DNA of 37,627 nt from a virus. Shown here in pieces: positions 2,878 through 13,641 of this stretch. The DNA lies in IMG/VR virus record IMGVR_UViG_3300025810_000022, positions 1-37,627 of that record. The stretch is one strand, 5' to 3'. The position numbers and the translations under genes are program-made. A model generated the notes under the pieces. That model saw only the letters and a program-made list of their open reading frames with translations, was not told the origin of the DNA and searched no databases. The number at the start of each line of letters is the position of its first letter. Position 1 is the first letter of the stretch.

Positions 2878-3315
2878 TTATTTCTCCTGTTTTATTTCTT
2901 TTTCTAAAACTACATGGGTTCTTTTGTAGTCAAAGATTTTTAAAACTTTTTGCCAACCTGGTCTAGCAATTAGTTCCATCATTTCGCAACCTTCTTCTTT
3001 AGCAAAATTTTCTATCTTACTAATTAAGTGTTGCCACTTGTGTCTTTGTCTGCCAGTCATAATATAGATATGACAAACTTTACCAAATTTTCTTTTTATC
3101 AACTCAGTTACTACAACACCAAAGTATTTATTTGTTGTAATCTTTTGTTCTTTATCCCACAATACCCAAACTTGAAATTTACCTTGTTTGGCAAGATCAT
3201 AAACAAAATCTGAATCGGTAAGTTGACTTGAATAAGCTAGAGCAGATTTAATATCTTTTTCTACCATACCCCAAACTTTATCAAGTTCTTCAATTGGTAT
3301 TCGTACTACTTCCAT
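2878..3315 (-). CDS. GNAT-like acetyltransferase-fold protein, 145 aa
   Basis: Length and layout resemble small GNAT domains. There is an N-terminal helical region, a central strand pair (residues about 45-75, VWVLWDKE then YFGVVVTEL), a strand with HIYIMTGRQRHKWQHLISKIENF at about 82-104 matching the acetyl-CoA-binding turn and following helix, and a C-terminal EGCEMMELIARPGW strand plus KIFDYKRTHVVLEK ending. Similar proteins occur among virion genes of many marine podoviruses; whether they are catalytic is not known. The classical R/Q-x-x-G-x-G/A loop is only loosely kept (TGRQRHKW). Confidence 0.6.
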   Translation of the reverse strand: MEVVRIPIEELDKVWGMVEKDIKSALAYSSQLTDSDFVYDLAKQGKFQVWVLWDKEQKITTNKYFGVVVTELIKRKFGKVCHIYIMTGRQRHKWQHLISKIENFAKEEGCEMMELIARPGWQKVLKIFDYKRTHVVLEKEIKQEK

Positions 3316-3350
3316 AAATACATTAAAAAATACTTAATAACAATATATTA

Positions 3351-3692
3351 TTACGCACTCTTTTCGTCAAATATTTCTACATAGCTAACAATACCTGCTA
3401 TGTTATTAGCAGAGGCAGCTTTTACTTTTAAAGCATCTCCAGATTCTAAAACCATAGTACCTTTGACAAGATTATCTACTGTTTTAGATGATAAATTTAT
3501 ATGTGCTACTTCATGTTCTGCGTTAGATGCTGAACTATCTGTAGTAAAGGCTTCAACCTCAACTGCACCAGAATGAATATTAGTTATTTGAATAGATTTT
3601 ACTAAAGCTGTTCTGTCAGTTGGACAGGTATATACAGTTGTCTTATCTGTAGTTGTTAGATCAAACATAGCATTTTTATATATATTAGCCAT
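3351..3692 (-). CDS. Small beta-rich tail-associated protein, 113 aa (paralogue of 7735-8064)
   Basis: A beta-rich protein with no cysteine pattern or membrane segment. It shares its layout with the 109-aa protein at 7735-8064: an N-terminal strand with T-x-V, a N-x-x-SG-x-V-x-V strand, a Leu-rich middle, then K-x-V/M-V-L-x-SGD-x-L-x-V/A-x-(S/A), and a final S-x-V/E strand. Probably an accessory of the tail fibres or a small adhesin-like domain; this is inferred from position at the distal end of the fibre block. It overlaps the stop of 3685-4008 by eight bases. Confidence 0.65.
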   Translation of the reverse strand: MANIYKNAMFDLTTTDKTTVYTCPTDRTALVKSIQITNIHSGAVEVEAFTTDSSASNAEHEVAHINLSSKTVDNLVKGTMVLESGDALKVKAASANNIAGIVSYVEIFDEKSA

Positions 3693-4008
3693 TCTTAGGA
3701 TGCTTTACTTTAACTGCTTTTATAGCTTCATAGAACTCAAAGTATTGAGATTTTAATGCTGGGTTTTGATCTATAGAGTGCCATAGCATATCTAGCTGAT
3801 CTCCAATGCTAGGATAAACTCTATCTCTTTGATATTGGTTAGCATCATACTCTGCTTGTACCTCTACCATTTTAGCTTCTATGTCAGCTACTGGTATAGG
3901 TGTTGTTCCATTTTCCCAAGTAATTGTATTTATATTATCATCTGCAACAGATACTTGAGCATTAGGATTTATTTTAAGTATTGCATTTATTATAATTTCA
4001 TTTGTCAT
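3685..4008 (-). CDS. Tail-fibre-linked accessory protein, 107 aa (paralogue of 5814-6143)
   Basis: The N-terminal half has a W-x-N-x-x-x-P-I-P motif followed by an Ala/Glu helix, and the C-terminal half has Y-P-S-I-G-D-Q-L-D-M-L-W (residues about 68-79) and ends with KxKHPK. The same order (W..., then R...Y-x-D/S-I-G-D/E-Q-L-D, then I-K-x-x-x-P-K) is seen in the 109-aa protein at 5814-6143. Proteins of this type usually follow tail-fibre genes in marine phages and may help fibre assembly; that role is inference. Confidence 0.65.
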   Translation of the reverse strand: MTNEIIINAILKINPNAQVSVADDNINTITWENGTTPIPVADIEAKMVEVQAEYDANQYQRDRVYPSIGDQLDMLWHSIDQNPALKSQYFEFYEAIKAVKVKHPKNG

Positions 4009-4011
4009 AAT

Positions 4012-4500
4012 TTATCCTGATATTTCAAAAGCTGTAATTGTTCCTTGATTATTGTTATCAATACCATTTAGATAAGCAGTTCCAGAACCAACAGCTCTAA
4101 AATAAACTTGATATGTTAATTGTGATGTTGATGATGGACTATCAAGATATTGCATAGTGTGAGGAACATTTATTAAAGCACTAACTTTAGACCAAACTGT
4201 TCCCATTCCTAAATTAGAATTTCCTAAATTGGTAGAATCTCTAAATATTGTTGCTGTAGTATAACTTTCGTTATTGTTATTTCTAATACATGTACTTGCC
4301 ATAACAAAAACTTTATTTGAAGTTGAACTTGGAGTTATATTTACAGTTAATCCATTACTAGCTGTAACAAAAGAAGTTGAAGTTGTTGTTACTCTACTAC
4401 TTGTATTTGCAGTAACTATTTGCAAAACCTTACCACCTACACCAGCTGGTAAAGCAGTTATCGCTGAGATGGTATTATTATTAGGCTTGATTATAGACAT
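4012..4500 (-). CDS. Putative tail fibre / receptor-binding protein, 162 aa
   Basis: The N-terminus MSIIKPNNNTISAIT followed by LPAGVGGKVLQ resembles a short virion-attachment segment, and the rest is Ser/Thr/Asn-rich beta sequence with alternating hydrophobics, typical of small fibre-tip domains. No enzymatic motif is visible. Its start is preceded by GATGAGGAGATTCTGAG, with a GAGGAG ribosome site. Directly upstream lies a truncated copy of its first 13 codons (4491-4577), evidence of recombination at this spot. Confidence 0.65.
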   Translation of the reverse strand: MSIIKPNNNTISAITALPAGVGGKVLQIVTANTSSRVTTTSTSFVTASNGLTVNITPSSTSNKVFVMASTCIRNNNNESYTTATIFRDSTNLGNSNLGMGTVWSKVSALINVPHTMQYLDSPSSTSQLTYQVYFRAVGSGTAYLNGIDNNNQGTITAFEISG

Positions 4501-4577
4501 CTCAGAATCTCCTCATCTTTGTTAAACTTGTTTAACGAAGCAGATATTGTATTATTGTTTGGTTTAATTATTGCCAT
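4491..4577 (-). pseudogene. Truncated relic of a tail-protein N-terminus
   Basis: A 28-codon frame starts at ATG 4577-4575, overlapping the stop of the S74 fibre gene. Its first 13 residues, MAIIKPNNNTISA, match the next gene's MSIIKPNNNTISA except for one residue. After codon 14 the similarity ends and the frame runs through the ribosome site of the intact gene to a stop. The copies differ at several silent positions, so the duplication is not recent. It looks like the stub of an exchanged tail gene. Confidence 0.6.
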
Positions 4578-5803
4578 TATGCGTTCTCCAATGCTGTTAC
4601 TTTAGCTTCAAGTGTTTCAATTCTTTCCATAGCTTCTTGTAATGCTTTAACTGATTTCATGTATAAAACAGAATATTTAACTTCTTTATAACTTTCTTCT
4701 TTTATATCTCCGATATTTTTACCTTCTGGCAAAACATCATTTTCAGTATAAAGTACATCTGGTTTATCTTTAACAAGACCATTCATACCAGATGCTTCTA
4801 AGTCTTGTGCTATAACTCCAAGAAGTTGTTTGTCTGGAGAAATTTTAAGATTATAATTTTTTATTTTTAATTTTTTAATATCATTCCATTGAGAATTAGC
4901 ATCAGTTTCATTTTCTTTAAATTTTCTATCTGATAAAGAACCATAGCTATTAAAAGTATTAAAAACATCTCCATCAGCTTCAATTAAAAAATGTCTTGTT
5001 TCTGTTCCAGCATGGTCTGAATTTATAGCAAAAACATCAAATGTGCTTGTGCTTCTTTGATCATAAAATGTAACTAATGGACTTCCTGTATTTCCTTTTA
5101 CATATAATGTATTATTACCTAATGATGTTTCGCCAATACCAACTTGACCAGTACTAAAAATACGCATACGTTCTGTATCATTAGTAGCAAAAACCATATC
5201 AGAATTTTCAAAATTCCAAAGTTCAACTCTTGGTGTGCTATCAATTCTTGCAACAAAACCATCACCAGTACCAGAGCCAGTTGCTGTTGATGATAATTTC
5301 ATTACTGGATAAGTTGAATGAATATGTAATCCACCATAAGCAGTTGGAGGTGTTGGAGAAATTCCTATCCCAACATTCTCACTACTATCAATAGTTATAG
5401 CTGTTGCGTCTGCACTTGATGTAATACCAGCCACTCCACCTACACCACTTGCAAGTTTCGCAGAAGTTATTGCACCATCTGCAACTTTAGCAGTTGTAAC
5501 TGTAGCATCACTAGGTACACCAAGATCAAGAACATCACCAAGTATCTGAATAAAATCTATAACATCTCCTGTAGCAAGGTTGCTAGCAAAAGTAATTGTA
5601 GAACCACTAACAGTAAAAGATGGATTAGCTCCACCAGGTTTTTGGATTGTACCATTTAAAGATACAATCATGTGATTTGAACTCTGTGGAATTACATTAA
5701 CTGATCCTACTTGCATAGTGTATGCAGCTTGACCATTAACTACAGATATTGCATCACAAATCTGAAAGTTTCCTACTGTGGGTTTACGACCTATATAACT
5801 CAA
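4577..5803 (-). CDS. Tail fibre with C-terminal S74 chaperone domain
   Basis: The N-terminal ~110 residues (Y-x-x-x-x-G-S-V... V-S-L-N-G-T-I-Q-K-P-G, then S-G-S-T-I-T-F, then G-D-V-I-D-F) form an attachment domain also seen in the 292-aa fibre at 6845-7723. The middle is Ser/Thr/Gly-rich beta sequence. From about residue 285, YGSLSDRKFKEN followed by I-K-K-L-K-I-K-N-Y and L-G-V-I-A-Q-D-L-E marks a Peptidase_S74 intramolecular chaperone, which trimerises fibres and is released by self-cleavage; the conserved Ser (in GSLSD) and the downstream Asp/Lys are present. It ends in a coiled coil (ALQEAMERIETLEAKVTALE). The start is TTG at 5803, chosen for the strong AAGGAG seven bases upstream. Confidence 0.9.
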   Translation of the reverse strand: MSYIGRKPTVGNFQICDAISVVNGQAAYTMQVGSVNVIPQSSNHMIVSLNGTIQKPGGANPSFTVSGSTITFASNLATGDVIDFIQILGDVLDLGVPSDATVTTAKVADGAITSAKLASGVGGVAGITSSADATAITIDSSENVGIGISPTPPTAYGGLHIHSTYPVMKLSSTATGSGTGDGFVARIDSTPRVELWNFENSDMVFATNDTERMRIFSTGQVGIGETSLGNNTLYVKGNTGSPLVTFYDQRSTSTFDVFAINSDHAGTETRHFLIEADGDVFNTFNSYGSLSDRKFKENETDANSQWNDIKKLKIKNYNLKISPDKQLLGVIAQDLEASGMNGLVKDKPDVLYTENDVLPEGKNIGDIKEESYKEVKYSVLYMKSVKALQEAMERIETLEAKVTALENA

Positions 5804-5813
5804 TTCTTACTCC

Positions 5814-6143
5814 TTAACTTTTTGGGTTATTATCTTTTATACTTTTAATTCTAGCTTTCCAAGAATTTATATCTTTATAAATTTCATCTAGCTGTTCACC
5901 AATATCGCCATAAGCTGATCTTCTTGTTGATCTAACTTGTGCATTGGCTTCTTCTTTGTTAGCTGCTGATTCTTGTGCTGATAATTGTGCGTCTGTTGGT
6001 TGTGCAATATCTAAATTCCACTCCTTAATGTAAGCACCATTGCCATCACTATCGTCTTGCAACATAACATCTTTAGTAAAATCTACATTTGAAACTCCAT
6101 TAGCTTCGCAGTATGATTTTATTTTTGTACTTAGTTGTGCCAT
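5814..6143 (-). CDS. Tail-fibre-linked accessory protein, 109 aa (paralogue of 3685-4008)
   Basis: The N-terminal half is mixed, with W-N-L-D-I-A-Q-P-T-D-A-Q-L at about 43-55. It continues into an Ala/Glu-rich helix and the motif R-S-A-Y-G-D-I-G-E-Q-L-D-E-I-Y-K-D-I (about 76-93), then WKARIKSIKDNNPK. This domain order is shared with the 107-aa protein at 3685-4008. One copy lies just upstream of the S74 fibre and one downstream of the 162-aa fibre. Fits a small fibre chaperone or connector; no function is proven. Confidence 0.65.
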   Translation of the reverse strand: MAQLSTKIKSYCEANGVSNVDFTKDVMLQDDSDGNGAYIKEWNLDIAQPTDAQLSAQESAANKEEANAQVRSTRRSAYGDIGEQLDEIYKDINSWKARIKSIKDNNPKS

Positions 6144-6161
6144 AGTTTGTCCTCCTTAATT

Positions 6162-6752
6162 TTATGTTATAATTTTTTCTCCTGAAAAACCTGCGAAATT
6201 ATTTGTTCCAAATACATTTATAACGTCACTTCCAACATTAGCATATCCACTACAATTAAAATAATCTGAAGTTCCATTAGCGTCTACTACTGCTGACATA
6301 CAAATACCTACTCTTTCAACTGTATTTGCAGTAGCAAATTTAAAACTATAAAATCTCATTAAACCACCACTAGTATTTCCATTTTTTAAAATTTCTCCTA
6401 TAAAAAGGTCTCCATTATTGTCTACTGAATCAAGTGCAAAAAAAGAATTTAATCTATATTTTCCAGCTACATTAGGTGCAAAAGAATAAGATGGTACAGA
6501 TATTCCATTTAAAGTTGCTGTACTTCCAGTATTATTGTAACAACCACCTTCGTTATATGCAAAAATACTTCCATCTGTAGTCAAATCATCAAATTGAATT
6601 TTAGTCCATGTACTATCACTTATTGTTTGAGCAGTAGAAAGAAAGGCTTGAAAACAAGGTTTATTATCTCCACCAGCACCACTTACAGTTCCTGTAAATG
6701 CAAAGTTATCTGCAAGGTTAATTGATTCTGATTGTATTTTATCTATTGCCAT
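6162..6752 (-). CDS. Fibre-tip protein with C1q-like jelly-roll pattern, 196 aa
   Basis: After a short N-terminal segment (MAIDKIQSESINL) the protein shows the pattern of a C1q/TNF-like beta sandwich: P-C-F-Q-A-F-L-S, then K-I-Q-F-D-D, a segment ending F-A-P-N-V-A-G-K-Y-R-L-N, later V-G-I-C-M-S-A, and a final F-S-G-E-K-I-I-T. The C-terminal half of 6845-7723 has the same order and a matching end (WIGYKLIT). Such domains trimerise and bind receptors in phage tail tips, so a receptor-binding role is likely. Confidence 0.65.
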   Translation of the reverse strand: MAIDKIQSESINLADNFAFTGTVSGAGGDNKPCFQAFLSTAQTISDSTWTKIQFDDLTTDGSIFAYNEGGCYNNTGSTATLNGISVPSYSFAPNVAGKYRLNSFFALDSVDNNGDLFIGEILKNGNTSGGLMRFYSFKFATANTVERVGICMSAVVDANGTSDYFNCSGYANVGSDVINVFGTNNFAGFSGEKIIT

Positions 6753-6836
6753 TTAATTATTCTCCTTAAAATTTTCTTTGCTTTGATAAATCAAAGAATG
6801 AAGTTCTTTGCATGAGTGTAACGAATGTAAAGCCAT
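6753..6836 (-). CDS. Possible 27-aa peptide between fibre genes
   Basis: The only frame that fills the 92-base gap between two fibre genes starts at ATG 6836-6834 behind TAGGATAAATT and ends in a TAA just before the next gene's ATG. The product begins MALHSLHSCKELHSL and resembles nothing I know. The DNA contains a 6-bp hairpin (CTTTGA-TAAA-TCAAAG, 6781-6796). It may be a recombination scar and not a gene. Confidence 0.25.
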   Translation of the reverse strand: MALHSLHSCKELHSLIYQSKENFKENN

Positions 6837-6844
6837 AATTTATC

Positions 6845-7723
6845 CTATGTAATTAATTTGTATCCTATCCACCAACATCTTGAAGTATTTGCTGGATTAT
6901 CTTGATTAACATTAAAAGTTCCTCCATTATTTACATCTACTCTTGCATAAACTTTAACTGTATCTCCAGCAGATAAATCTAAAACTCCAGTATGAACTAA
7001 TCCAGCTTGTGTATGTGCATTTTGTTGAGTATTGGTATAAATATTTTGTGCATCATTTATATAAAAATAAATTTCACAAGTATTTAATGACTGAGAACTA
7101 TTTGTTTCTATATGCAAAGTAACATTAAAAAAATATTTTCCATCTTCTCCACTTGGAACTGTAAAAGTGCTAGAAGCAAAAGCGTTATCAGTATCAAAAT
7201 TTTCTTGACCAAAAGTAATTTGAGTTAAAGTATTATCAGCAATATTAGATTGGTCTGTACTAGGTGTTACATAAAAAGCTGGAGTGTTATCTCCACCAAT
7301 GCCAGATACAAAGTTTGCTCTAGTCATTTTTCTTAATGCACTAGCTGATGTGTCATGGATTAATATTGTGTCATCTGTTGCGATAGAAGTTTCAGCAGTT
7401 TGACCAGTAATTATTGTAGGTGCAGTTTGTGAGTTTCCAACAGATGCGTTTGGTGGATTAACAGTTTGTAAAGCTCTGCCAAGATAAACTGCATACATGG
7501 AATCTCCAGATACTGTTGCACTTGATAGTGTCAGAGTTGTACCACTAGCTGTGTATGCTTTACCAGATCCAGGTTGTTGAACTACTCCATTGATAACTAA
7601 TCTAATTTCATTCTCATTGGTTACTGCATGAGATAAAGTATAGTTAGCTGTAGCAGAAACTGTAAATGTTTCTGTTTCAAAACTTGCGTAACTTTCTGCT
7701 GGTATATTACCAATATAAGCCAT
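6845..7723 (-). CDS. Tail fibre protein with shared attachment domain and C1q-like tip, 292 aa
   Basis: Residues 1-95 form the same attachment-domain pattern as the S74 fibre: M-A-Y-I-G, Y-T-L-S, L-V-I-N-G-V-V-Q-Q-P-G, A-S-G-T-T-L-T-L-S, then D-S-M-Y-A-V-Y-L-G. A linker (I-A-T-D-D-T-I-L-I-H-D) leads to a C-terminal C1q-like beta sandwich from about residue 145: P-A-F-Y-V, Q-I-T-F, T-V-P-S-G-E-D-G-K-Y-F-F-N-V, L-D-L-S-A-G-D-T-V-K-V-Y-A, ending W-I-G-Y-K-L-I-T. It is probably a trimeric receptor-binding fibre. The shared N-terminus suggests that this fibre and the S74 fibre dock on similar sites. Confidence 0.75.
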   Translation of the reverse strand: MAYIGNIPAESYASFETETFTVSATANYTLSHAVTNENEIRLVINGVVQQPGSGKAYTASGTTLTLSSATVSGDSMYAVYLGRALQTVNPPNASVGNSQTAPTIITGQTAETSIATDDTILIHDTSASALRKMTRANFVSGIGGDNTPAFYVTPSTDQSNIADNTLTQITFGQENFDTDNAFASSTFTVPSGEDGKYFFNVTLHIETNSSQSLNTCEIYFYINDAQNIYTNTQQNAHTQAGLVHTGVLDLSAGDTVKVYARVDVNNGGTFNVNQDNPANTSRCWWIGYKLIT

Positions 7724-7734
7724 TTATATAATCC

Positions 7735-8064
7735 TTATGTACTAATTGAATCTACTACTGATAAAATGCAGTCCACAGCACTTGCTGTATCTGATAATGC
7801 TTCAACACTATCTCCTGATTGTAGAACTACTTTTGAACCACCATCTATAAGTTCTAAAGAACCTCCAGCTGGTATTGGTGCATCTTTTATCAAATAATAG
7901 CTTGTACTTGAGTTTTTAACAGTAGCATCTACAGTTACAGCTGAACCTGATTTATTAGCAAATCTCATACCAATAATTGCGTCATCACTATTAGCTGCTG
8001 CTCTAACTTCTGTAGCAGATGTGCCTATGCTAGTTTTTAAAACTCTTTCAAAATCTTGTGCCAT
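7735..8064 (-). CDS. Small beta-rich tail-associated protein, 109 aa (paralogue of 3351-3692)
   Basis: A compact beta protein with the pattern N-K-S-G-S-A-V-T-V-D-A-T-V, then Y-Y-L-I-K-D-A-P-I-P-A-G-G-S-L-E-L, then K-V-V-L-Q-S-G-D-S-V-E-A. This arrangement recurs in short proteins near the tail fibres of marine phages and, more divergently, at 3351-3692 in this genome. It lies between the long fibre (8084-9841) and the 292-aa fibre. No enzyme motif; probably structural. Confidence 0.65.
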   Translation of the reverse strand: MAQDFERVLKTSIGTSATEVRAAANSDDAIIGMRFANKSGSAVTVDATVKNSSTSYYLIKDAPIPAGGSLELIDGGSKVVLQSGDSVEALSDTASAVDCILSVVDSIST

Positions 8065-8083
8065 TATTTTTTCCTTTTATTAA

Positions 8084-9841
8084 TTAAAGTGCAATTGCCA
8101 TAGCAACTGCAAATCCAGCTGAAGCTGCATCTATGTTTGTTAATTGACTACCATCTACAGCAGGTAATTTCGCAGAACCATCAAGTTGTACCACATTGTT
8201 TGCAGAAGTTCCAACAGTTTTTGTGGAAGCTGTTCCTAATCCTGTAATTTTAGTATTAGCAATAGAATTGACTGCTAGTGTAATTGTACCTGATGAAGTA
8301 ATTGGTGAGTTTGCTACTGTAAATTCTGAAGAACCTGAATCTGCTACTGCTACTGAAGTTACTGTTCCAACATTAGATGGAGTAATAACAGTATAAGTAA
8401 TATTAGTTGAACCTACTGATCCAGTATTATCAGTAGTACATAAAAATATTTTATTATCATTTGTTGAACCTTGATTAACTACAACCATTCCACCAGATAA
8501 TTCTGCAATACTATCATGCTCTGGATCTCTTGATGCAGCACCACTTGATACTGCTAAGTATAATCCATTTTCAGTAGCATCTGTTTGATCTTTTAATAAA
8601 ACTCTGTCACCAGCAACAAGGGTAACACCATCAATACTATCACCAGCTTCTAAACCATTTGATAAATTTACATTTGCTGTAGAAGCACATTCGGCTATCG
8701 TTCTAGTTCTTAGTCCAGCAACAGCTTGATCTACATAATTTTTAGTAGCAGCATCTGAACTAGCAGATGGAGAACCAAGTCCTGTTACAGCTCCACCAGA
8801 TATTGAAACATTGTTTGCAGCTTGTGTTGCAATTGAACCTAATCCTAAAGAAGTTCTAGCAGTAGCACCACTCTCTGTTACAAAATTTGATCCATCCCCA
8901 ACAATAAAATTACTATCAGTTGGTGTTAGTCCAGCAATGTCAGTTAATTGAGCATCGCTTGTTTGTTTTGCATCTAACTGAGTTTGAATTGCAGATGATA
9001 CTCCATCTAAATATCCTAGTTCAGTTGTTGTAACATCACTAACTTCTACTTTACCTGAACCATTTGATTGTAATGCTCTTGAAGCGGTTAAGTCAGACGA
9101 TGCTATAGTTGATGCACCACCAGTTATGGTAGCTTGTTTTGAATCTATTTGAGTTTGTACTGCACTTGTAACCCCATCTAAATAACCTAATTCAGTATCG
9201 GTTACATCTGATACTGCAATCTTTTGTGAGCCATTAGAAATAACAGCTCTGTTTGCAGTTAAAGATTCTGTATCAATTGTTGTAGCTGATCCTGTTATAG
9301 TTGCTTGTTTAGCATCTAATTGAGTTTGGATAGCACTTGATACACCATTTAAATATTGAAATTCTGTATCTGAAATTGTTCCATCTGCAATTTTAGTTGC
9401 AGAAATTCCTGTAGGTATAGAGTCATTCGTTTTTGTAAGTATTGCAAGATAAACTGATAAAGTTTCATTTGCTAATGATCCACTATCAAAAGTTACATTG
9501 ACAGTTGTGTTTGTAGAAAAAGATGAACTAGCAATTACTCCATATCTAAATGCAGCTGTAGTTGCTAAATAAATTTTTATTCTTCTACCTGCATGATATT
9601 CTGAAGTTACATCAGCACCATTAATTGTAAAAGAAGTTCCACTTACATAAGCTGCTGTGTAAGAACCTGAACCATCACCATATTCTACCCATTGTGCATC
9701 ATTGTAAAAATCTCTAGTGTTCTTCATCAATGCTCTGATTGCATTGTTTAGATTAGAAGGTAGCATTCCTTCTGCCGTAGAAATACCATTTAGTGAAGTG
9801 TTATTTGCTTGGGTTGTTGAGTAATCTTTTATACCTGCCAT
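8084..9841 (-). CDS. Main tail fibre protein with internal repeats, 585 aa
   Basis: The N-terminus (MAGIKDYSTTQANNTSLNG, then M-L-P-S-N-L-N-N-A-I-R-A-L-M) is the tail-attachment signature often seen in marine podovirus fibres. From about residue 160, 57-residue units recur, each with (E-L-G/Q)-Y-L-(D/N)-G-V-(S/T)-S-A-(I/V)-Q-T-Q-(L/I)-D-(A/S)-K-Q, typical of rod-like trimeric fibres. The C-terminal half is Ser/Thr/Gly-rich with an A-T-K-N-Y-V-D-Q motif near 370. It is the first fibre gene after the tail-tube genes, so it is likely the primary fibre on which the other tips assemble. An AGGAGATTAA ribosome site precedes the ATG. Confidence 0.8.
   Translation of the reverse strand: MAGIKDYSTTQANNTSLNGISTAEGMLPSNLNNAIRALMKNTRDFYNDAQWVEYGDGSGSYTAAYVSGTSFTINGADVTSEYHAGRRIKIYLATTAAFRYGVIASSSFSTNTTVNVTFDSGSLANETLSVYLAILTKTNDSIPTGISATKIADGTISDTEFQYLNGVSSAIQTQLDAKQATITGSATTIDTESLTANRAVISNGSQKIAVSDVTDTELGYLDGVTSAVQTQIDSKQATITGGASTIASSDLTASRALQSNGSGKVEVSDVTTTELGYLDGVSSAIQTQLDAKQTSDAQLTDIAGLTPTDSNFIVGDGSNFVTESGATARTSLGLGSIATQAANNVSISGGAVTGLGSPSASSDAATKNYVDQAVAGLRTRTIAECASTANVNLSNGLEAGDSIDGVTLVAGDRVLLKDQTDATENGLYLAVSSGAASRDPEHDSIAELSGGMVVVNQGSTNDNKIFLCTTDNTGSVGSTNITYTVITPSNVGTVTSVAVADSGSSEFTVANSPITSSGTITLAVNSIANTKITGLGTASTKTVGTSANNVVQLDGSAKLPAVDGSQLTNIDAASAGFAVAMAIAL
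8965..9367 (-). repeat. 171-bp coding repeats within the tail fibre gene
   Basis: Three copies of a segment encoding Y-L-D/N-G-V-x-S-A-x-Q-T-Q-x-D-x-K-Q occur at a spacing of 171 bases (landmark TCTAA/TCTAT sequences at about 8972, 9142 and 9314). The copies differ at many silent sites. They form the shaft repeats of the fibre and could mediate length change by recombination. Confidence 0.7.
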
Positions 9842-12816: not shown

Positions 12817-12947
12817 CTACCTTGACCTTTGTATCTTGTTTGCTTTTTTTGTCTGCTCTCTGATTTGTTTTGAGATTTTTTATGACAACCAGGTCTTTTT
12901 TTAGGTTGATCTCTTGGAACAAAGTGAACAAACTTTTGTCTAGCCAC
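12813..12947 (-). CDS. Small basic protein, 44 aa, GTG start
   Basis: The frame starts at GTG 12947-12945, inside the stop of the preceding gene (TAGTG), and ends in TGA overlapping the next ATG. The product (MARQKFVHFVPRDQPKKRPG, then H-K-K-S-Q-N-K-S) is strongly basic. Short proteins beginning RQKFVHFVPR occur in the head region of several marine phages as I recall them. Function unknown; DNA or capsid binding would fit the charge. Confidence 0.6.
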   Translation of the reverse strand: MARQKFVHFVPRDQPKKRPGCHKKSQNKSESRQKKQTRYKGQGR

Positions 12948-13231
12948 TAAGCACTCATTTCAGTAATAGAAACTTCAGCAGTACCAATAAAAGCTACTTT
13001 CTCACCAGGTGAAACTTTAAAAATTTCAGGTTGGTCAGCAGGTATAAAAATAGTTGATGAATTAGCAGTTGCAACAGCAGTTGGGTTTGCACCGAATAAA
13101 ATATAAATATCAGCAGTTGATGCTATTCTTACATATTCAGTTTGTGATCCAAATGCAGCAGATTGTGCTGATGTTCCACCACTTGTTTTACCTTGATGTG
13201 TAGTAGGTCTTAATCCGTAATTAAAACTCAT
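12947..13231 (-). CDS. Probable head decoration / stabilising protein, 94 aa
   Basis: A small Ala/Ser/Thr-rich beta protein (Y-V-R-I-A-S-T-A-D-I-Y-I-L-F-G-A-N-P near 33-50, then F-I-P-A-D-Q-P-E-I-F-K-V-S-P-G-E-K-V-A-F). This pattern is common in small phage proteins that follow the major capsid gene. No catalytic motif. It is separated from the 113-aa gene upstream by a G/C hairpin (13252-13282), suggesting its own expression level. Confidence 0.65.
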   Translation of the reverse strand: MSFNYGLRPTTHQGKTSGGTSAQSAAFGSQTEYVRIASTADIYILFGANPTAVATANSSTIFIPADQPEIFKVSPGEKVAFIGTAEVSITEMSA

Positions 13232-13299: not shown

Positions 13300-13641
13300 T
13301 TATCTTCTAATTACGAAAGTAATTTCCATTTTAGAAGTATTTGATGAACCACCATTAGTAATACATTCAATAGTACCATCTTCAGCAACAGTATTTAAAG
13401 CTGTTGGAAAAGCAGTTGCTACTTTACCAGCTGAACCTGAAGCTACATGACTTATAGCACCTCCAGTTACTGCAACACCACCTATTTCAAAAGAGATAGC
13501 TGCTGTGCCAGTTGTAGTTGCTTTGTTGTGAGTGATGATTTTTACAATTTTTCCACCATCAGGTACACAAACAAAAGTTGATGAAGCTGTTGAAACATCT
13601 GGAATTGCAGATGTTAAAAAGTAATCGTTTAATGTTCTCAT
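13300..13641 (-). CDS. Head decoration / head-fibre-like protein, 113 aa
   Basis: The N-terminus (MRTLNDYFLTSAIPDVSTAS, then F-V-C-V-P-D-G-G-K-I-V-K) and the alternating Gly/Ala/Thr beta strands that follow resemble small proteins encoded just after the capsid gene in many marine podoviruses and siphoviruses. It is flanked by two almost identical G/C hairpins, 13252-13282 and 13713-13730. The position next to the major capsid gene favours a capsid surface protein; not proven. Confidence 0.65.
   Translation of the reverse strand: MRTLNDYFLTSAIPDVSTASSTFVCVPDGGKIVKIITHNKATTTGTAAISFEIGGVAVTGGAISHVASGSAGKVATAFPTALNTVAEDGTIECITNGGSSNTSKMEITFVIRR

Follow-up and report, generated by a model that had tools for sequence, protein, structure and literature searches.

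SAR11 bacteria are among the most abundant bacteria of the sea and, to our knowledge, how their phages choose the cells they infect is largely open. We analysed the window, a stretch of 37,627 nucleotides (positions 1 to 37,627 of IMG/VR virus record IMGVR_UViG_3300025810_000022), and within it a cassette of fibre, tip and helper genes on the minus strand, which reads S (9841-8084), A1, Y1, Q, B1, Y2, T, B2 and A2 (Table 1). Phage HTVC106P has these nine genes in an identical order and is also the best DNA match of positions 3300-8100 (70% identity over 54% of the query) among 28 matching phage records, 18 of which are Pelagibacter phages. Kinship with pelagiphages is seen for the virion genes of the window, and the host of the virus is probably a SAR11 ocean bacterium. 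The full nine-gene order occurs in 10 loci, counting the window and HTVC106P, many contigs among the loci being cut. The original prediction, made from the letters of the window, had named seven of these open reading frames (ORFs), all of which lie on the minus strand where it had placed them; most are preceded by a Shine-Dalgarno-like stretch, and AAGGAG precedes the TTG start of Y2.

Table 1. Genes of the cassette in the window, in reading order on the minus strand.
Gene	Position	Strand	Description	Basis
S	8084..9841	-	585-amino-acid virion/fibre-like protein; probable anchor	PHROG matches, slot comparison
A1	7735..8064	-	Small A-family protein, first slot	A profile; phrog_1276 (E 1.3e-6); tree
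Y1	6845..7723	-	Long fibre, Y domain at residues 1-92, C-terminal C1q-like tip	Y profile, 110 bits
Q	6162..6752	-	Tip-only protein, C1q-like	Homology to Y1 tip
B1	5814..6143	-	Helper, XkdW-type N half and IGDQLD C half	PF09636, 64.9 bits (cut-off 24.6)
Y2	4577..5803	-	Long fibre, Y domain at residues 1-99 and C-terminal S74-type chaperone domain	Y profile, 130 bits
T	4012..4500	-	Tip-only protein, predicted TNF-like lectin fold	Structure model, PLTL fold match, 9efk orf22 profile match
B2	3685..4008	-	Helper, B2-type N half and IGDQLD C half	phrog_9114 (E 4.5e-26)
A2	3351..3692	-	Small jelly-roll A-family protein, last slot	Model, fold matches, tree

The original prediction had paired the N-terminal domains of two fibres, two C1q-like tips and two sets of small accessory proteins. 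We set the score of each pair against 1000 shuffles of one partner, and none of the shuffles scored as high as the pair for the N-domains of Y1 and Y2 (Z 12.4), for Q and the end of Y1 (Z 6.6-7.0) or for A1 and A2 (Z 4.8). Whichever copy seeds the profile, the members gathered are identical for A (167 from each copy) and the N-domain (160 from each); the C1q-tip profiles gather nested sets (175 inside 204), and the homology runs over the full length of the A copies, the Y domains and the C1q-like tips. For the helpers B1 and B2 the proposed pairing held for the C-terminal half (Z 3.8, reached by 2 of 1000 shuffles, about 46 residues) and failed for the N halves, which are separate families; the B profiles have 153 and 160 members with 149 in common, whereas those of the N halves have 94 and 61 members, none in common, and give no profile alignment. 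A third tip protein, T, was absent from the earlier list and, with T counted as a tip protein, both units read as a long fibre with a Y domain, a tip-only protein and a helper. The better unit is therefore this trio of long fibre, tip-only protein and two-half helper, present twice, with the small jelly-roll A proteins outside, and the idea that repeated modules, with several different tips, make up a cassette is supported.

Profile searches were iterated over 4405 ORFs from 157 loci and the window, locus counts being slightly inflated by duplicate contigs (L004/L084 and L016/L140), and trees were built for A (167 members, cut to 159 and then to 51 rows), Y (160, 154 and 53) and B (164 family members, 143 after filtering for length and identical sequence, and 99). 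Genes with an unreadable slot (35 of A, 24 of B and 19 of Y) were kept as separate groups. All 15 last-slot rows of the A tree fall in one group of 23, the other 8 being unplaced (Shimodaira-Hasegawa-like approximate likelihood ratio test, SH-aLRT, 98), and 20 of the 23 first-slot rows of the Y tree lie within one set of 22 (SH-aLRT 99). One side of the B tree holds 28 first-slot, 9 probable first-slot, 8 unplaced and 1 last-slot rows, and the other 46 last-slot and 7 unplaced rows. Because unrelated N halves are pooled in this tree and make its central branch longer, it was redone with the C half alone (104 rows, 39 columns, 3 starred branches); the slot separation holds on these few columns, and the XkdW-type label (70 rows) is explained by only 2 changes. 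The copies of A, Y and B thus cluster with same-slot copies from other phages; the slots are old, have been kept in place, and by these trees the two slots predate the split of the compared phages; an ancient duplication behind them is possible.

The slots are retained in relatives that include isolated pelagiphages with T7-like and siphovirus-like genomes, and shorter or variant cassettes occur in HTVC203P, HTVC035P, HTVC100P, the T7-like HTVC019P, HTVC010P and HTVC026P. The record of HTVC026P (L156) includes tape-measure and tail-protein genes, yet its fibre cassette is that of the short-tailed pelagiphages, which points to exchange between phages of different tail types. Relatives of B1 were taken from the best 80 of 344 places in the scan, which limits the diversity of B1 covered; a tblastn search gave B1 relatives in 11 of 50,697 phage records, all of them Pelagibacter phages and two listed twice.

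Regarding the tips, we call the Y1 tip and Q C1q-like, a designation that is weak by Pfam, with Y1 reaching 17.9 bits for C1q PF00386 (cut-off 23.7) and Q giving no Pfam C1q match. Tip-only proteins carry recurring N-terminal segments, and that of Q is common in its family (MAIDKIQSESIN in 27 of 104). The structure model of T (predicted local distance difference test, pLDDT, 88) superposes on PLTL with a VIA-align Z of 15.6 (root mean square deviation 1.8 over 123 residues) and on the N-domain of BC2L-C with a Z of 15.2, at 14-18% identity to these two TNF-like lectins. Other trimeric TNF/C1q-type proteins follow at Z 9 to 14 and, since chlamydial Pgp3 (13.7), Bdellovibrio Bd2734 (12.3) and BxpB (11.7) rank between the lectins and the C1q chains, the fold match alone cannot fix a lectin function for T. 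As modelled, T is a tip with a TNF-like lectin fold, the same fold as the BC2L-C N-domain and PLTL, but it sits in a phage fibre cassette. Its profile also matches the last 160 residues (499-658 of 658) of 9efk orf22 (E 1.1e-15), a solved phage-type protein deposited in 18 copies. A direct sequence link between T and the C1q tips was considered and dropped on shuffle scores (Z -0.7 against Q, 1.4 against the whole of Y1 with 116 of 1000 shuffles as high, and 2.7 against its tip part with 18 of 1000); the relation shown is one of fold.

Tips are also found fused to Y domains, T-type in 13 and C1q-like in 92 of the 160 Y proteins, so that fused and tip-only tips come from the same families. The two slots differ in the diversity of their tips. 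With Y tips shorter than 61 residues left out (142 of 160 kept) and classes defined by blastp linkage, which permits distant relations between classes and joins C1q and T tips in the largest, 73 of 74 first-slot Y tips belong to one linked class, whereas the 57 second-slot tips fall into 12 classes, or nine once three made of contig-end fragments are removed. Tips have thus been exchanged in the second slot; the distance between Y2 N-domains is unrelated to that between their own tips (rho -0.02, n=53). Parts of the cassette appear to be traded between viruses, and such trading may change which cells the viruses attach to. As a separate observation, HTVC010P (L002 6005-7963) and HTVC019P (L155 4402-6237) each carry three tandem T-type tip genes, and 23 such runs of three exist across the loci, as though the lectin-like tip had undergone an expansion of its own.

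The helpers consist of a variable N part and a shared C part and lie directly after a fibre or tip gene, as do Tfa-type chaperones such as Pam3 gp25 (PMC9608196) and the PF16778 proteins, which are likewise encoded by small genes after the fibre or tip and have a variable N and a conserved C region. In Pam3, the variable N domain grips the fibre beside its TNF-like end and the C domain is conserved (PMC9608196). Unlike these chaperones, the B proteins have an IGDQLD C half that Pfam chaperone models do not recognise, and Pam3 gp25 is absent from the PDB matches of the B profile. Apart from its Pfam match, B1 matches the solved XkdW structure 2hg7 (E 8e-4), and B2 gives no match to XkdW PF09636; apolipophorin, Hsp70 and ribosomal matches of the B searches were set aside as unsupported.

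A PF16778 chaperone follows the three tandem T genes in HTVC010P (E 2.8e-13) and HTVC019P (E 2e-9), in the place that B2 takes after T in the window. After runs of three T genes (n=23) the C half is PF16778-type in 15, IGDQLD in 1 and neither in 7, and after single T genes (n=71) the corresponding numbers are 7, 39 and 25. The halves are swapped between helpers: XkdW-type N with IGDQLD C is the commonest combination (93), followed by B2-type with IGDQLD (35), NING-type with PF16778-type (33) and B2-type with another C half (20), and less often B2-type or another N half with PF16778-type (5 each), NING with IGDQLD (4), another N half with IGDQLD (3), NING with another C half (2) and XkdW-type with another C half (1). 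The combination of an XkdW-type N half with a PF16778-type C half was not seen among the helpers across the loci. This exchange of halves with PF16778 chaperones ties B to the fibre chaperones. Two helper-like proteins of about 125 amino acids (L095 6573-6950 and L148 2642-3019) have the IGDQLD C half preceded by a further N half that differs from the others.

Tips and helpers also vary together. Covariation was computed over 72 of 77 loci, and T with B2 gave the highest value of the pairs computed (rho 0.42, n=39, p 0.0005), which stays at 0.32 to 0.43 when one other slot is held constant and compares with 0.04-0.26 for the other adjoining pairs. It is the N half of B2 that tracks T (0.48); the C half does not (-0.08).

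The Y domain shows a tentative resemblance, at the level of sequence profiles, to the T4gp10-like docking domain of branched phage adhesins. In the PDB, the strongest matches of the Y profile are the P-SCSP1u fibre at E 3.8e-12 and, in two copies, a K1 capsule depolymerase at E 2.3e-11; the CBA120 tail fibre 6w4q is matched at E 0.012, and the weaker matches, at E 0.01 to 0.3, are mostly other fibre or adaptor chains of phages, with two unrelated proteins. In the P-SCSP1u fibre, the Y domain (575-663) comes after a T7-type anchor, PF03906 (10-155). By hhalign, Y aligns with residues 215-249 of the ORF28 family of Klebsiella phage K1-1 (13 rows; 12 of 14 relatives aligned; E 2.4e-4, probability 44%, 37% identity over 35 columns), and that family matches the same stretch of the depolymerase as Y does (whole-sequence E 2.2e-6, no single stretch below 0.01). 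The aligned ORF28 stretch overlaps amino acids 186-242, given as the T4gp10-like dock of group A KP34viruses in the cited part of PMC6872550, K1-1 itself being a Drulisvirus.

The other end of Y2, at residues 291-338, matches Peptidase_S74 (PF13884; 26.2 bits, cut-off 22), beginning at residue 291 with SDRKFK, where a Ser/Lys pattern is presumably catalytic for self-cleavage.

S has no Pfam family, and its residues 340-542 match PHROGs named head decoration and other virion families. Its slot is that of the annotated main tail fibre in HTVC203P and HTVC019P, and our best guess is that S, in this main-fibre slot, is the attachment partner of the N-terminal Y domains. The model of A2 (pLDDT 92) is a jelly roll like small capsid cement proteins, turret proteins and nucleoplasmin cores, which are tied at Z 9 to 10, and resembles many small phage virion proteins (best template modelling score 0.90). 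A match of the A-family profile to a streptococcal superantigen in the PDB (E 5.7e-5) was set aside as a probable look-alike.

In light of these data, we consider it rather probable that the locus is a modular two-slot host-adhesion cassette, and probably a branched receptor-binding array with dedicated chaperones. Each slot would start with a long fibre bearing the putative gp10-like docking-type Y domain at its N-terminus, placed on the tail, onto which the N-terminal segment of the tip-only protein would dock, as in the branched adhesins of Klebsiella phages. The tip, presumably a C1q/TNF-type jelly roll, would probably trimerise and probably bind a surface glycan, and the choice of tip would set the host range. 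The two-half helper may act as a Tfa-type fibre chaperone whose N half recognises the tip and whose C half is shared, and the A proteins that flank the two units could, at a guess, cap or link the fibres on the tail.

Parts of this arrangement have precedents. That tail-fibre, C1q and XkdW genes vary among marine phages is already in print: in the cited part of Mizuno et al. 2014 (PMC3909814), which treats pelagiphages in detail, tail fibre and C1q-domain genes are variable host-recognition genes, and XkdW-like genes are among those of the host-recognition islands. That part concerns the variability of single genes, whereas the window has two fixed slots, exchange between tip-only and fused tips, a TNF-like tip and helper halves; in the literature searched, there was no description of the two-slot anatomy, the TNF-like tip or the half-swapping helpers. 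The anchor-branched receptor-binding proteins of Klebsiella phages appear alike in the portion of Latka et al. 2019 (PMC6872550) drawn on here, in that long adhesins contain a docking-type domain, the N-terminal segments of their partners are conserved and distal domains are swapped. In that account, however, the dock lies behind a virion anchor and the tips are depolymerases, whereas in the window Y stands at the N-terminal end of both long fibres, the tips are of a C1q/TNF-like type and the cassette includes dedicated helpers.

Several observations weigh against the branched array with dedicated chaperones. Neither Y1 nor Y2 has a virion anchor before its Y domain, which begins at residue 1, and the Y profile against T4 gp10 itself gives an hhalign probability of 5% (at 303-349). 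Neither B1 nor B2 matches the chaperone models PF02413 and PF16778 in Pfam, the library searched (not NCBIfam). The T-B2 signal could partly reflect linkage of neighbours; when B2 is restricted to a single kind of N half, the covariation of T with that half is a weak 0.21 (p 0.03, n=34), and where both halves are of a single kind it lacks significance (0.17, p 0.16, n=19). For B1, covariation is weak with Q (0.16) and not significant with the Y1 tip (0.04), its best partner being the Y1 N-domain (0.31); the general rule that each helper tracks its own tip was therefore given up, as it holds for B2 and weakly for B1.

Read as a two-slot adhesion cassette, the locus names likely receptor-binding tips, distinguishes the slot that is exchanged from the one that is kept and, on the basis of sequence, pairs tips with helpers. 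Swapped chaperone halves suggest a way in which tips could be exchanged while the fibres still assemble. More tentatively, and we hold this to be doubtful, there may be a plug-in system common to SAR11 phages of unlike tails, in which TNF/C1q-type lectin tips would dock via N-terminal segments on the gp10-like domains of two long fibres, and a chaperone for each tip, made of two exchangeable halves of which one is matched to the tip and one shared, would let tips be swapped between lineages with assembly intact.

There is a real possibility that the two units were never duplicated in this lineage and that similar modules were gathered separately from the gene pool of marine phages. The B N halves are unrelated by profile, Y domains occur in 60 records of other marine phages (including Prochlorococcus, Synechococcus and Methylophilales phages) and parts of the cassette reassort, although both units have the same internal order, a common Y domain and a common B C half. 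It seems unlikely that the B proteins are structural or regulatory tail proteins, with the covariation of their N half with T reflecting linkage; no tested function of XkdW was found in the literature, XkdW is listed as unknown in the cited part of PMC3909814 and the best-matching PHROGs of B are labelled as of unknown function, but the half exchange with PF16778 chaperones, their same place after tip genes and a T-B2 covariation exceeding that of other neighbours argue for chaperones. Placement of the fibres and A proteins on the head instead of the tail, as the PHROG name matched by S and the cement- and turret-like fold of A might suggest, is quite improbable, since in pelagiphages, T7-like and others, the cassette lies behind the annotated main tail fibre gene, and in HTVC026P behind tail genes. 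The original prediction had proposed repeated duplication of a fibre plus helper cassette, and the repeated modules within one region speak for it; as a recent event in this phage, such duplication is extremely improbable and was rejected, since the slot-specific trees separate the copies, which are closer to the same slot of other phages than to each other, and the order in HTVC106P is identical.

Elsewhere in the window, two small beta-rich-looking proteins are encoded near the capsid gene on the minus strand (12947-13231 and 13300-13641), which are faintly similar to each other (blastp E 0.001 in a set of 16 proteins) and show, by shuffling, no significant similarity to the A proteins. Directly after the cassette lies a further gene for a small protein (2878-3315, minus strand), whose good matches are only to PHROGs of unknown function, and a gene of similar length occupies the same place in HTVC106P.

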